Shown here piece after piece: positions 1 to 12,083 of a stretch of 44,419 bases of DNA. Numbering within the stretch: the stretch's first letter is position 1; each line of letters opens with the position of its first letter. Source of the DNA: Pseudomonadota bacterium (GTDB lineage: Bacteria; Pseudomonadota; Gammaproteobacteria; Burkholderiales; Burkholderiaceae_C); NCBI GenBank assembly GCA_021804595.1, contig JAJZHH010000005.1:3551-47969 (forward strand), written 5' to 3'. Below the pieces are notes generated by a model. The model was not told the DNA's origin. It saw only the letters and a list, made by a program, of their open reading frames with translations, and did not search any database. Position numbers and translations under genes: made by a program.

Positions 1-395
1 CGTCGCGCTTCCTTGGTGGTCGGTCATGGCAGTTGGATCTTCGCCGTCAATGACCGACTTGACCCGCAAGCGTGAGAAAGGTTCTCGAATCCCGAAAAAG
101 ATCAGGCCCTCGCGCGCAGGGCCTGGCATCCTGGAATCTGTATGACAGGGCCGAAGGCGAAAAAGGCCGAGTTGAGCCGATTCGCAACAAGCGCGGCGGC
201 ACCGCGCTTCGTCGAGTTTCTCCTCCGCAACAATCGCTTTGTCGACACCGCCGGCCACCCGGTCGTCAACGACGTCGGACTCGCTGCGCTGACGCTGCGG
301 GTCGCCGAATCCGACCCGAAGGACAAGGACATCCTGATCCGCCTGATCATGCACATGATCGGAACGGCACCGCCGACCGCGGAGCGGGCGCAAAA

Positions 396-470
396 AAGCC
401 CCAGGCTTGTGACCTGGGGCTTCGTATTTGGCTCCCCGACCTGGGCGAATCCGGGCGCTGGACCATCACC
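396..470 (-). repeat. Direct repeat copy 1: intrinsic terminator hairpin plus tRNA-Asn-like 3' end
   Basis: AAGCCCCAGG-cttgtga-CCTGGGGCTT hairpin, read on minus strand followed by TTTTTT; then rc GGATTCGCCCAGGTCGGGGAGCCA resembling a tRNA T-arm/acceptor/CCA. Second copy at 1322-1396. Confidence 0.8.
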
Positions 471-489
471 CTGTTGCCAACAACGCCAC

Positions 490-523
490 TTGCGTCGCCA
501 CTTCGGATGTGTAAACTTACACA
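490..523 (+). promoter_or_regulatory. Putative hicAB promoter with overlapping operator
   Basis: TTGCGT (490-495), 16 nt, TAAACT (512-517); inverted repeat TGTGTAA-ac-TTACACA (508-523) ends at the hicA ATG. Confidence 0.55.
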
Positions 524-718
524 ATGAACAGTTCGCAGGTCATCAAGCTTCTGAAGGCCAATGGCTGGTTCCTCGTCCACACGGTCGGATCGCACCACCA
601 GTTCCGCCATCCGACCAAGTCCGGGAAGGTGACCGTGCCGCACCCGAAGAAGGGCCTGCCGCTGCCGACCGTGCGTTCGATCATGAAGCAGGCCGGGATC
701 CAGTCCCAGGAGGTTTGA
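524..718 (+). CDS. hicA: HicA-family mRNA interferase toxin
   Basis: 64 aa, MNSSQVIKLLKANGWFLVHTVGSHHQFRHPTKSGKVTVPHPKKGLPLPTVRSIMKQAGI: HicA dsRBD-like fold with GSHHQF motif. Confidence 0.93.
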   Translation: MNSSQVIKLLKANGWFLVHTVGSHHQFRHPTKSGKVTVPHPKKGLPLPTVRSIMKQAGIQSQEV

Positions 719-1110
719 TGCTCTACCCCGCCTACGTCCACATCGGAGATGACAAGCACGCCCACGGCGTGGACTTCCCGGATTTTCCAGGATGCTTCTC
801 GGCCGCCGATGCGTGGCAGGATCTGCCGCGGGCCGTCCAGGAAGCCGTGGAAGCGCACTTTGCCGGCGGCGAGGAGCGGATTCCAGAACCGACCCGCTTG
901 GAAGATCTGACCAGCGACCCCGACTATTCGGGGGGTGCCTGGATGCTCTTCGACATCGATCTGTCGCGTATCAACGCCCGGGCCGTGCGGCTGAACATCA
1001 GCCTGCCTGAGCGCCTGGTCCAGCGCATCGACACCGAGGCGAGACGGCGCAAGCTGTCGCGTTCGGCCTTCCTGGCGCTCGCCGCGGAACACGAAATGAG
1101 CACGGCCTGA
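718..1110 (+). CDS. hicB: HicB-family antitoxin
   Basis: ATG overlaps hicA stop (TGATG). HicB N-domain (YPAYVHIGDDKHAHGVDFPDFPGCFSAADAW) and C-terminal ribbon-helix-helix. Confidence 0.93.
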   Translation: MLYPAYVHIGDDKHAHGVDFPDFPGCFSAADAWQDLPRAVQEAVEAHFAGGEERIPEPTRLEDLTSDPDYSGGAWMLFDIDLSRINARAVRLNISLPERLVQRIDTEARRRKLSRSAFLALAAEHEMSTA

Positions 1111-1126
1111 GCACCGCGGCGCCACC

Positions 1127-1294
1127 ATGACCCGAACGGCCATCGCAGCCCTTTGCGTCCTGACCTTGATCGCCGTGATCGTCGGCGTGGACGTCCTGTT
1201 CCTCAGACACCGATTCTGGGCGCGACTGTGGGTGAACATCGGCGTCGTCGCGGTGTTCGCCGTGGCCTACCTGCGCTTTGTGAAAAGGCACTGA
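1127..1294 (+). CDS. Small two-TM membrane protein (55 aa)
   Basis: MTRTAIAALCVLTLIAVIVGVDVLFLRHRFWARLWVNIGVVAVFAVAYLRFVKRH; ATG to TGA, 16 bp after hicB stop; below the ORF-track size cut-off. Confidence 0.65.
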   Translation: MTRTAIAALCVLTLIAVIVGVDVLFLRHRFWARLWVNIGVVAVFAVAYLRFVKRH

Positions 1295-1321
1295 AGCTGG
1301 GCCACAAACCCAGAAGCGATG

Positions 1322-1396
1322 AAGCCCCAGGCTTGTGACCTGAGGCTTCGTATTTGGCTCGCCGAACAGGGCGAATCTGGGCACTGGGCGATCACG
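1322..1396 (-). repeat. Direct repeat copy 2 of the terminator/tRNA-like 3' end
   Basis: Same orientation as 396-470, 66/75 positions identical by manual alignment; 926 bp offset. Confidence 0.8.
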
Positions 1397-2066
1397 CTAG
1401 CTTCAGGGCGCTGAGGCATTCCACGGCACCTGTACGGGATGCCGAACACGTAGAGCAGCGCGCGTAACATGCCTCGGCGGCTTGCCGTCTGGCCACACTC
1501 GCTTTCCTGGGACACCTCGGGTCGGAATAGCGCGGTTCGCCGACGCCGCGCACCGCGTCGTACGTGGCGAAGCGACCGTCCGGCACGAGCAGCCGCCTGA
1601 TCTCCCGGTACAGACCCGCGCGATCGGCGATGTTCATGGCCACGTGCTGCAGCAGCACGATGTCGAAACTGGCGTCGATGAAGTCCAGCGCCAGCGCGCT
1701 GCCGCCGTGGAATTCCACGCGCTCCTGCCGGCCGGTGCGCTGGCTCAGGTAGCGCGTGGACTCGACAAGGTCCTCGCTGAGGTCGACGCCAACGACCCGG
1801 TAGCCGCGCCTCTCGGCAATCAGTCGCGCCGGTCCGCCGATGCCGCAGCCCAGATCGAGCACGCGGTCGGCGGGACCAATCCCGGCCAGCTCCGCCAGGT
1901 CGGCGGTGGCGGCATGCCCGCGGGTATGGAACTGGTCCATCGCGCCGAGCTCGCGAACCGTCAACGTCCGGTCTTCCGGGGCCCGCGCGGCCAGCGCCGC
2001 TCGAAGGCGCGCGACCTCTCAGGTGGACGCGTCGTGCTCGCGAACGCCGTCCAAGTCCTGCGCCAT
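1392..2066 (-). pseudogene. SAM-dependent methyltransferase (class I), decayed
   Basis: VLDLGCGIGGPARLIAERRGYRVVGVDLS motif I; in-frame TGA (2021-2019) after MAQDLDGVREHDAST; C-terminus non-homologous after GEPRYSDP. Confidence 0.75.
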
Positions 2067-2250
2067 CGCCGTCGCCCCCGTTGTCAGGCCCTTGCTCGAG
2101 GCTCCAAGCCTACGCGTGATGCGCGGCGACGGTTCTTGCAGCCGTGGCCGCGCGGTGGCGCGTCGATGGCCTTGGCCGCCTGCAATCCTGCTGCAAGGGG
2201 CCTGGTATCCAGGAGCAAGGCAAAACAGGGAGATGTAACGACGCCGAGAC

Positions 2251-10535: not shown

Positions 10536-12083
10536 ATGGGTACTGATGGCAAGCCGGGAGACGGCGGCGGGAGGCACGCGCGACTTCTTGGGGTCTTGAT
10601 CGCTCTCGCAGTGATTGTTTTGAACCTCGCAGTGGCCGGCACGGCAGAGCTTTTTCTGCAATCTCGCCTGGATGACGCGGAGAGTTCAGCGGCGGCCACG
10701 ACGCAAAGCATCGCGCATGCATTGGATGGATCCGTCAGCAACGCGGCCCAGGTCACCAAGCTCGCGGTGCGCATGCTCGTGACTGAATGCGAGAGCGAGA
10801 TGCAGTCAACCGGCGAGATCGAACCGGCGAAACTGAACGCGTATTTCAGAGCTATGCGAACCTCTTTGCCTGCCGGGACGCTGCTGCACGTGACCAATGC
10901 ATCAGGCCGCGTGATCTTTGGGCCGATGGTCGGCAACGCAAGACCGCTGTCCTATTCGGACCGCGACTTCTTTGCCGCGTTGATGGGGGGGCGAGCAAGT
11001 CCCAGGATCTGGGTCACCAATCTTCTCCGCGGGCGTGCTACGCAAGAGGAGGTGATCGCATTTGTCGCGCGCTATGACGACACAGAAGGCCGTCCCGAAG
11101 GGGTTGTCTCGGTTGCGATTCCACAGTCATACTTCCAGGCGCTTCTTCAAGTACCAAGCCTCGGGCCGCACGGCATCGCGCTGATGAGAGATGCCAGCAC
11201 GGCGTTGATCGCAAGCTATCCGGCATCGAAAGTTGAGAAGTTGGGCAATCGACACTTTTCTTCGCAGTTGGCACAGGTCATCAAGTCGGGGGAGCGTGCG
11301 CAGACCTTTCATGCCGTGCACACCGGTGACGGCATCGAGCGCATCGATTCGTTCAGGCGACTTTCCGGTTTGCCGTTCTACCTCGTTGTCGGCAAGTCGG
11401 CAGAAGATTACTTGGCGACCTGGCACAGTGCCCGCCGATGGGCCATCTTCGCGCAACTTGGTTTTCTCGTCGTCAGCACCAGCTTCGCGGCCATGCTCTG
11501 GAGCGTTGTGCGCCGTCTGCATGGGATCCAGCGCGACGAAGCACGGCGCGCGCGACGCGACGTGCTGACGGGCTTGCCGAATCGTCTGGCGCTGATGGAG
11601 CATTTGCCAAGCGCGATCGCACGCGCCAGGCGCAGCGGATCGTGGATGGCAGTTGGGTTGCTTGACCTTGACGACTTCAAGGCGATCAACGACGGATATG
11701 GTCACGCAGCCGGGGACAATCTGCTGATCGCACTGGGGCGTCGGCTGCAGGGCCTGGTGCGTGCGGGGGATTTCGTTGCGCGTCTGGGGGGCGATGAGTT
11801 CCTCTTTGTGTTCGAGGGTCTTTCCCCGTCCGAGGCGCAGTTGCAACTCGATCGTGCGTTGCACCGAATTCACCAAGCCGGCGATGCTTCAATTGGCCTC
11901 GGTGCTGGCCAGCAGGTCCGGATCGGCATGAGCATGGGAATCGCACTGTTCCCGCATGACGGCGACCATGCCGATGCGCTGCTGCGTCACGCTGATGCGG
12001 CAATGTACGAGGTCAAGCAGAAGAAAGGCAAACGGTTGACGTGGTGGAGCACGACGGCGCCGCAGGTGGGCGCAGCGACCTGA
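10536..12083 (+). CDS. Membrane diguanylate cyclase with periplasmic CACHE-type sensor
   Basis: N-terminal TM, sensor region, second TM, RARRDVLTGLPNR and VARLGGDEFLFVFE; I-site-like RAGD. Confidence 0.9.
   Translation: MGTDGKPGDGGGRHARLLGVLIALAVIVLNLAVAGTAELFLQSRLDDAESSAAATTQSIAHALDGSVSNAAQVTKLAVRMLVTECESEMQSTGEIEPAKLNAYFRAMRTSLPAGTLLHVTNASGRVIFGPMVGNARPLSYSDRDFFAALMGGRASPRIWVTNLLRGRATQEEVIAFVARYDDTEGRPEGVVSVAIPQSYFQALLQVPSLGPHGIALMRDASTALIASYPASKVEKLGNRHFSSQLAQVIKSGERAQTFHAVHTGDGIERIDSFRRLSGLPFYLVVGKSAEDYLATWHSARRWAIFAQLGFLVVSTSFAAMLWSVVRRLHGIQRDEARRARRDVLTGLPNRLALMEHLPSAIARARRSGSWMAVGLLDLDDFKAINDGYGHAAGDNLLIALGRRLQGLVRAGDFVARLGGDEFLFVFEGLSPSEAQLQLDRALHRIHQAGDASIGLGAGQQVRIGMSMGIALFPHDGDHADALLRHADAAMYEVKQKKGKRLTWWSTTAPQVGAAT

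Follow-up and report, generated by a model that had tools for sequence, protein, structure and literature searches.

A HicAB toxin-antitoxin unit of the Thiomonas group as a probable non-autonomous cassette of large serine recombinases at tRNA gene ends

SCC and ECC elements and their remnants stack at one site, and some of these elements lack a recombinase. SCC (including SCCmec) of Staphylococcus and ECC of Enterococcus use Ccr large serine recombinases and insert in the 3' region of rlmH (PMC6222049). The Acinetobacter dif (pdif) modules are small, some of them with toxin-antitoxin (TA) or Fic genes, have short sites and a recombinase acting in trans, and are strongly restricted to their genus (PMC6449649). 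In a review of mobilizable elements, tyrosine enzymes are assigned to tRNA 3' ends and serine recombinase sites to positions within genes (PMC5704250), and the attB sites that overlap tRNA genes in M. abscessus have been described for tyrosine integrases (PMC10654092). The open-access literature searched yielded no description of TA cassette arrays in Thiomonas, nor of large serine recombinases (LSRs) at tRNA ends in that genus.

The window, which is the whole stretch of 44,419 nucleotides analysed here, belongs to a 2.8-Mb assembly of the Thiomonas group (G000; 194 contigs, 95.8% complete) whose arrays lie at contig ends. Its direct repeats at 396-470 and 1322-1396 are identical at 66 of 75 positions, with an offset of 926, and are not due to chance. 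By coordinates, and by Pfam for the first two genes, they enclose hicA, hicB and a 55-aa predicted membrane ORF, as described by a first-pass annotation made from the letters alone (Table 1). HicA toxin and HicB antitoxin domains stand in tandem, which identifies the pair as a HicAB module. The small membrane protein, for which a Pfam search returned no family, is also encoded in the HicAB cassettes of L040, L042, L052 and L039; it was seen in all complete HicAB cassettes, and in L046 it lies beside a transporter gene.

Table 1. Features of the HicAB cassette and its borders (window coordinates).
Feature	Position	Strand	Basis or remark
RhuM-Fic gene 3' remnant (PF13310/PF02661-type), in the cassette upstream of copy 1	208..393	+	near assembly gap, truncated
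Terminator-like hairpin 1, GCCCCAGGCTTGTGACCTGGGGC (398-420), with 6-T run	392..420	-	putative right-end half site of the upstream cassette
Core 1, TGGCTCCCCGACCTGGGCGAATCCGGGCGCTGG	429..461	+	putative left-end half site of the HicAB cassette
Junction TGG	429-431	+	complement of the tRNA CCA end
Cassette unit, 926 bp, from the junction TGG up to, but not including, the next TGG	429..1354	+	cross-genome cassette comparison
hicA toxin	524..718	+	PF07927, E=1.9e-21
hicB antitoxin	718..1110	+	PF15919, E=9e-39; start overlaps hicA stop (TGATG)
55-aa predicted membrane protein	1127..1294	+	passenger conserved among HicAB cassettes
Hairpin 2, GCCCCAGGCTTGTGACCTGAGGC, right end of the HicAB cassette	1324..1346	.	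sequence
Core 2, TGGCTCGCCGAACAGGGCGAATCTGGGCACTGG, putative left-end half site of the next cassette	1355..1387	+	
Head of a further truncated cassette	1388..1527	+	similar to cassette heads in G005:C77 and G007:C65 and to G027:C153

Read on the minus strand, each repeat had been likened to the 3' end of a tRNA-Asn gene with its terminator. On the minus strand both copies show ...CGCCC(A/T)G...GGGGAGCCA, or a variant of it, and after 8 nt a GC-rich hairpin; a run of six T closes copy 1 (A392-397 on the plus strand) and is missing from copy 2. The real tRNA-Asn(GTT) of the genome lies on contig C39 (G000:C39:2327-2402, minus strand; 3' end TGGCTCCCCGACCTGGGCTCGAACC on the plus strand). The first 18 nt of this 3' end are exact in copy 1 and agree at 14-15 of 18 positions in copy 2, and the remainder of the repeat, beyond about 18 nt, is not tRNA sequence. 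The likeness is thus real for some 18 nt, the hairpin and, in copy 1, the T-run, but the repeat is no simple duplication of the tRNA.

A BLAST search with the repeat against its own genome recovered both window copies and a third full copy at C39:887-961, and a search with the pattern of the 33-nt core added a fourth core at C154:2401, left of the window. Just left of the window lies a second HicAB unit, 85% identical (G000:C154:1567-2229), with a left core shortened to about GGGCACTGG. The 33-nt core, TGGCTCSCCRANNNNGGCGAANCNGGGCACTGG, is present in 15 of the 28 genomes of the genus (Thiomonas group, isolate and MAGs), in none of the 53 other genera searched in the order and, across GTDB with one genome per species, only in the Thiomonas group and one Methylomirabilota MAG; viral contigs gave no match to the pattern and reversed-pattern controls gave 0. 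The named carriers among the relatives are Thiomonas sp. FB-6 and a Thiomonas MAG, and the presence of arrays in the isolate FB-6 rules out an artefact of MAG assembly. The Methylomirabilota MAG, from Lac Pavin, has an exact match to the core pattern (L065:5362-5394, WLPKRGESGHW...stop) and a second, partial one (L065:1487-1510).

Core copies share one orientation and form head-to-tail arrays with a spacing of about 0.5-3.6 kb. Most cores are directly preceded by a GC-rich hairpin, which belongs to one of a few types and often has a minus-strand T-run; hairpin (MFE < -12) and T-run on the tRNA strand occur together at 23 of 48 junctions, compared with 1.4% of random positions. Every closed unit (32/32) has a TA homologue, the Pfam-supported types being HicAB, TacAT, BrnTA, RhuM-Fic, SoFic, MNT-HEPN, RelE-HTH and two kinds of PIN module; a FitAB unit is named among the array cassettes of G005 and G008.

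Nine genomes or loci have an array that ends on the 3' end of tRNA-Asn(GTT), in the tRNA orientation that had been predicted and always behind a terminator-like hairpin, so that the hairpin stands where the tRNA terminator belongs. Hairpin 1 of the window occupies this position; it is present in 12 of the 28 genomes of the genus and directly adjoins tRNA-Asn in L040, L042, L044, L051, L059 and L060, and an end about 90% identical to that of the HicAB cassette adjoins tRNA-Asn in L042. The anchored array of the window genome is on C39 and runs RhuM-Fic, TacAT, LSR relic, tRNA-Asn. The array of the window, on C154, starts about 0.6 kb from a tRNA-Arg and not beside tRNA-Asn. On its left, 208..393 matches residues 267-332 of the L039 RhuM-Fic protein at 74% (tblastn), and a homologous RhuM-Fic 3' end precedes the same repeat on C39; its right-hand neighbour is a truncated cassette remnant. 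Fused to this remnant by read-through is a degraded second methyltransferase copy (window 1515-2123, minus strand), with 86% identity to G000:C57 and 69-83% to other genomes. Separate tyrosine-integrase islands also lie at tRNA-Asn (L145, L146 and L148, in G021, G013 and G010), their far ends being 39-48 nt copies of the tRNA 3' end; in G010 two complete tRNA-Asn copies stand 5.25 kb apart with the integrase between them.

The window locus does not serve as a clean empty/occupied pair, as its right side joins the degraded methyltransferase copy and its left side meets an N gap, and G005 and G008 were compared in its place. The array of G005 reads FitAB, HicAB, tRNA-Asn and that of G008 reads FitAB, MNT-HEPN plus PIN, HicAB, SoFic, tRNA-Asn, which gives an empty/occupied comparison at two junctions. 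The HicAB end of the window recurs (89-95% identity among copies over about 394-400 nt) and is followed by tRNA-Asn in G005, by a core and SoFic in G008 and by a core and RhuM-Fic in G014. Downstream cassettes are up to 97% identical over about 500 nt from the core on while their upstream neighbours are unrelated, and the converse, the same upstream unit beside different downstream units, is found as well. The change of neighbour falls precisely on the repeat, so gain, loss and shuffling of cassettes have all taken place. Units that recur beside different neighbours with precise boundaries are what is expected of mobile cassettes, and the proposals of a mini attL/attR cassette and of a non-autonomous TA cassette both agree with the recurrence at other loci, the boundaries and the gain and loss at the repeat. 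Core positions 12-15, and the bases immediately before TGG, vary even between cassettes that are 95-97% identical; these positions, together with 22-24, follow neither the left nor the right neighbour.

The unit holds no recombinase gene, in line with the claim that it has no integrase of its own, and the idea of an integrase hidden in the arrays or their left flanks was dropped, none being present there. An LSR gene with Resolvase, Recombinase and Zn-ribbon domains ends head-on at the CCA end of tRNA-Asn in G004, G015 and G016. Its frame crosses the junction (marked here by a slash) and is closed by the tRNA antisense strand (...KVPTFSHG/WLPDLGSNQGPTD-stop). At the three loci where another element follows the LSR 3' end (L047, L214 and L220), the frame runs instead into a core-like tail: ...KVPIFDHV/WLANTDKSENWQVEVDV-stop in L047 and, among LSRs of the tRNA-His type, ...SSIG/WGAMRNEDANWTIALEP-stop in L220 and ...SSIG/WGAGRDEDANWSASLVP-stop in L214. 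These tails and the window cores align without gaps in the register TGG-27nt-TGG. Identity to the cassette consensus is 26/33 for the L047 tail, which is of the Asn type, and 18-20/33 for the His-type tails; shuffled tails did as well in 0 of 100000 shuffles for L047 and at frequencies of 8e-4 and 4e-5 for the His-type tails. Cassettes and LSR elements have the same junction base, TGG standing for the CCA end, and the cassette core is homologous to the half-site of the LSR element itself. Given this homology in register, the most fitting reading of the core is as one half of an LSR attachment site that at the same time forms the 3' coding end of the LSR gene, and the window repeat is thus probably half of such a site.

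The codons of the cores still have the look of coding sequence. Codons 0-5 of the W frame hold no stops, which instead cluster at +6 and +8, and 25 of 48 copies have a stop within ten codons as against 24 of 96 in the other frames (p = 0.001, with related copies that are not independent); core positions 38 and 44, both second codon positions, are mostly T. The frame upstream of TGG is not constant, which disposes of the idea that hairpin and core encode a leader peptide for every TA operon, and the coding signal is therefore better assigned to the LSR tail. The tail peptides belong to no family by Pfam search. As for the att-site proposal, an attachment-site cassette at a tRNA end stands, but in view of the homology of the repeat, outside its tRNA-like part, to the LSR 3' tail, the att system is probably of the serine type and not that of a classic tyrosine integrase. 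The type of recombinase and the origin of the repeat are new beyond what had been proposed.

LSR homologues occur in 17 of the 28 genomes of the genus, mostly as relics or distant matches, and in 19 of 399 genomes and 16 of 159 genera of the order. Most of those in the order run their frame head-on into a tRNA (Asn, Arg(ACG), Arg(CCG), Glu or Ser) with TGG at the junction, and within the genus LSR genes also end at tRNA-His and tRNA-Leu. A complete element at tRNA-His in G018 (L222, oriented) shows, in order, a tail at about 5350, low-GC cargo, the LSR, the hairpin and the tRNA at 11604; its cargo at about 5.4-10 kb (G018:C2) has low GC3 and resembles an HNH nuclease with partners, perhaps a defence system. 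In G011 an LSR relic whose tail is of the His type is followed by a VapBC-like TA unit. One LSR, 91% identical, does not end at a tRNA (G001:C34:24251-25855, ...FSHGWL/GKYQSS) and possibly marks a secondary insertion site. In the window genome a decayed LSR 3' end lies at tRNA-Asn (C39:2186-2365), and this relic was all that was found of an LSR in an assembly 95.8% complete with arrays at contig ends; since an intact LSR seems to be absent, the cassettes of this genome may be stranded.

From these comparisons, the 926-bp unit can be regarded with good confidence as a non-autonomous integrative cassette for which an LSR is most likely supplied in trans. The same shuffling might have arisen purely by homologous recombination between repeats and hairpins, with old, inherited cassettes and no site-specific recombinase now active. 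Repeats and hairpins do offer about 70 nt of homology, several array genomes have no LSR match, and some units are fused or truncated (L039+5008, L040+6457); yet such recombination would explain neither the common tRNA-Asn/CCA junction of unrelated cassettes, nor the LSR gene that ends at the same base, nor near-identical cassettes beside unrelated flanks, and it is considered unlikely. Mobilisation by the tyrosine integrases whose islands also occupy tRNA-Asn in the genus has a smaller chance still of being correct. The integrases of L145, L146 and L148 (PF00589) lie beside tRNA-Asn with tRNA repeats as att, but those repeats are perfect tRNA over 39-48 nt, while the cassette core has only about 18 nt in common with the tRNA, its homology being to the LSR tail. 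A chromosomal integron-like array, with divergent attC and an integron tyrosine integrase, is scarcely credible, because despite the small head-to-tail units, the short site at each junction, the many TA genes and the single anchor, the GTTRRRY/RYYYAAC boxes of attC are absent from the core alignment, the anchor is a tRNA gene and not attI, no integrase gene lies beside the arrays, and the integron integrase (TIGR02249) exceeded the cut-off only in G013, G001 and G023, all without the core, G026 having only a broken match below it. By eye, the core alignment shows no evident likeness to a dif site.

Several observations count against mobilisation by an LSR. The window genome yielded no intact LSR, only the relic. 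The array-bearing genomes G002, G007, G012, G014, G024 and G025 are among those without an LSR match, although many such genomes are incomplete MAGs in which the assembly breaks at the arrays. The heads of some cassettes are considerably unlike the LSR tails, and the last bases before TGG and core positions 12-15 and 22-24 vary independently of either neighbour. Tandem growth at attR-type sites is moreover non-standard for phage serine integrases without a directionality factor.

If the LSR does move the TA cassettes, the left end of a cassette would be one attachment half, the 33-nt core, and its right end the other, made of the terminator hairpin and about 8 nt. A cassette attP joining the hairpin half to the core half would recombine, under an LSR acting in trans, either with the 3' end of tRNA-Asn or with a junction already in place, and the exact crossover bases at cassette junctions would lie at or beside TGG, the complement of the tRNA CCA end. 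Insertions at either kind of target would let head-to-tail TA arrays grow and shuffle, each incoming cassette bringing a terminator while the tRNA keeps its CCA end and a proper end. The LSR gene would itself end inside the same attachment site, taking its last codons from the tRNA antisense strand when integrated and from a core-like tail otherwise. The TA genes would make loss of a cassette costly, so that selection for TA function, as addiction or as defence, presumably maintains the cassettes.

A more tentative extension, held with somewhat less than even confidence, concerns the position of the attachment site inside the 3' end of the integrase gene. Each integration would then rewrite the C-terminus, with antisense-tRNA codons or with the tail of the next cassette, and cassette heads could act as exchangeable in-frame C-terminal cartridges (W-9aa-W-x-phi-x-phi-xx-stop) able to switch the activity or direction of the enzyme as TA genes build up into an addictive array at the tRNA.

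Mobile TA modules usually lie inside larger elements. What moves in the present case seems to be the single TA module, equipped with no more than att halves and a tRNA terminator, and these modules stack at a tRNA gene as integron cassettes do. Serine integrases at tRNA CCA ends, with a frame closed by the tRNA antisense strand, would run contrary to the usual pattern, and tRNA-targeting LSRs would add a new set of integrases whose target sites are conserved and predictable. Whether TA genes persist through movement and addiction or through defence can also be tested directly on the arrays.

Compared with known systems, the Thiomonas-group arrays share with the tRNA islands of tyrosine integrases, including tycheposons, insertion at a tRNA 3' end that leaves the tRNA intact, whereas those islands use tyrosine integrases and longer tRNA repeats. 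With chromosomal integrons they have in common small, TA-rich cassettes placed head to tail and anchored at one site; unlike integrons, they show no attC boxes or link to an integron integrase, and terminators lie inside the site. The pdif modules are similar in their small TA or Fic units, short flanking sites and restriction to one genus, and would be so too in a recombinase acting in trans, but have 28-bp XerCD sites in alternating orientation, mainly on plasmids, in contrast to the same-orientation sites at tRNA genes on chromosomes described here. SCC and ECC would be comparable in the use of an LSR, the target in the 3' region of a gene, the stacking and the presence of recombinase-less units. 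The Thiomonas-group cassettes differ from them in that the target is the 3' end of a tRNA gene and not rlmH, the units are mostly TA modules of about 0.8-1.5 kb, and the LSR gene overlaps the att site.
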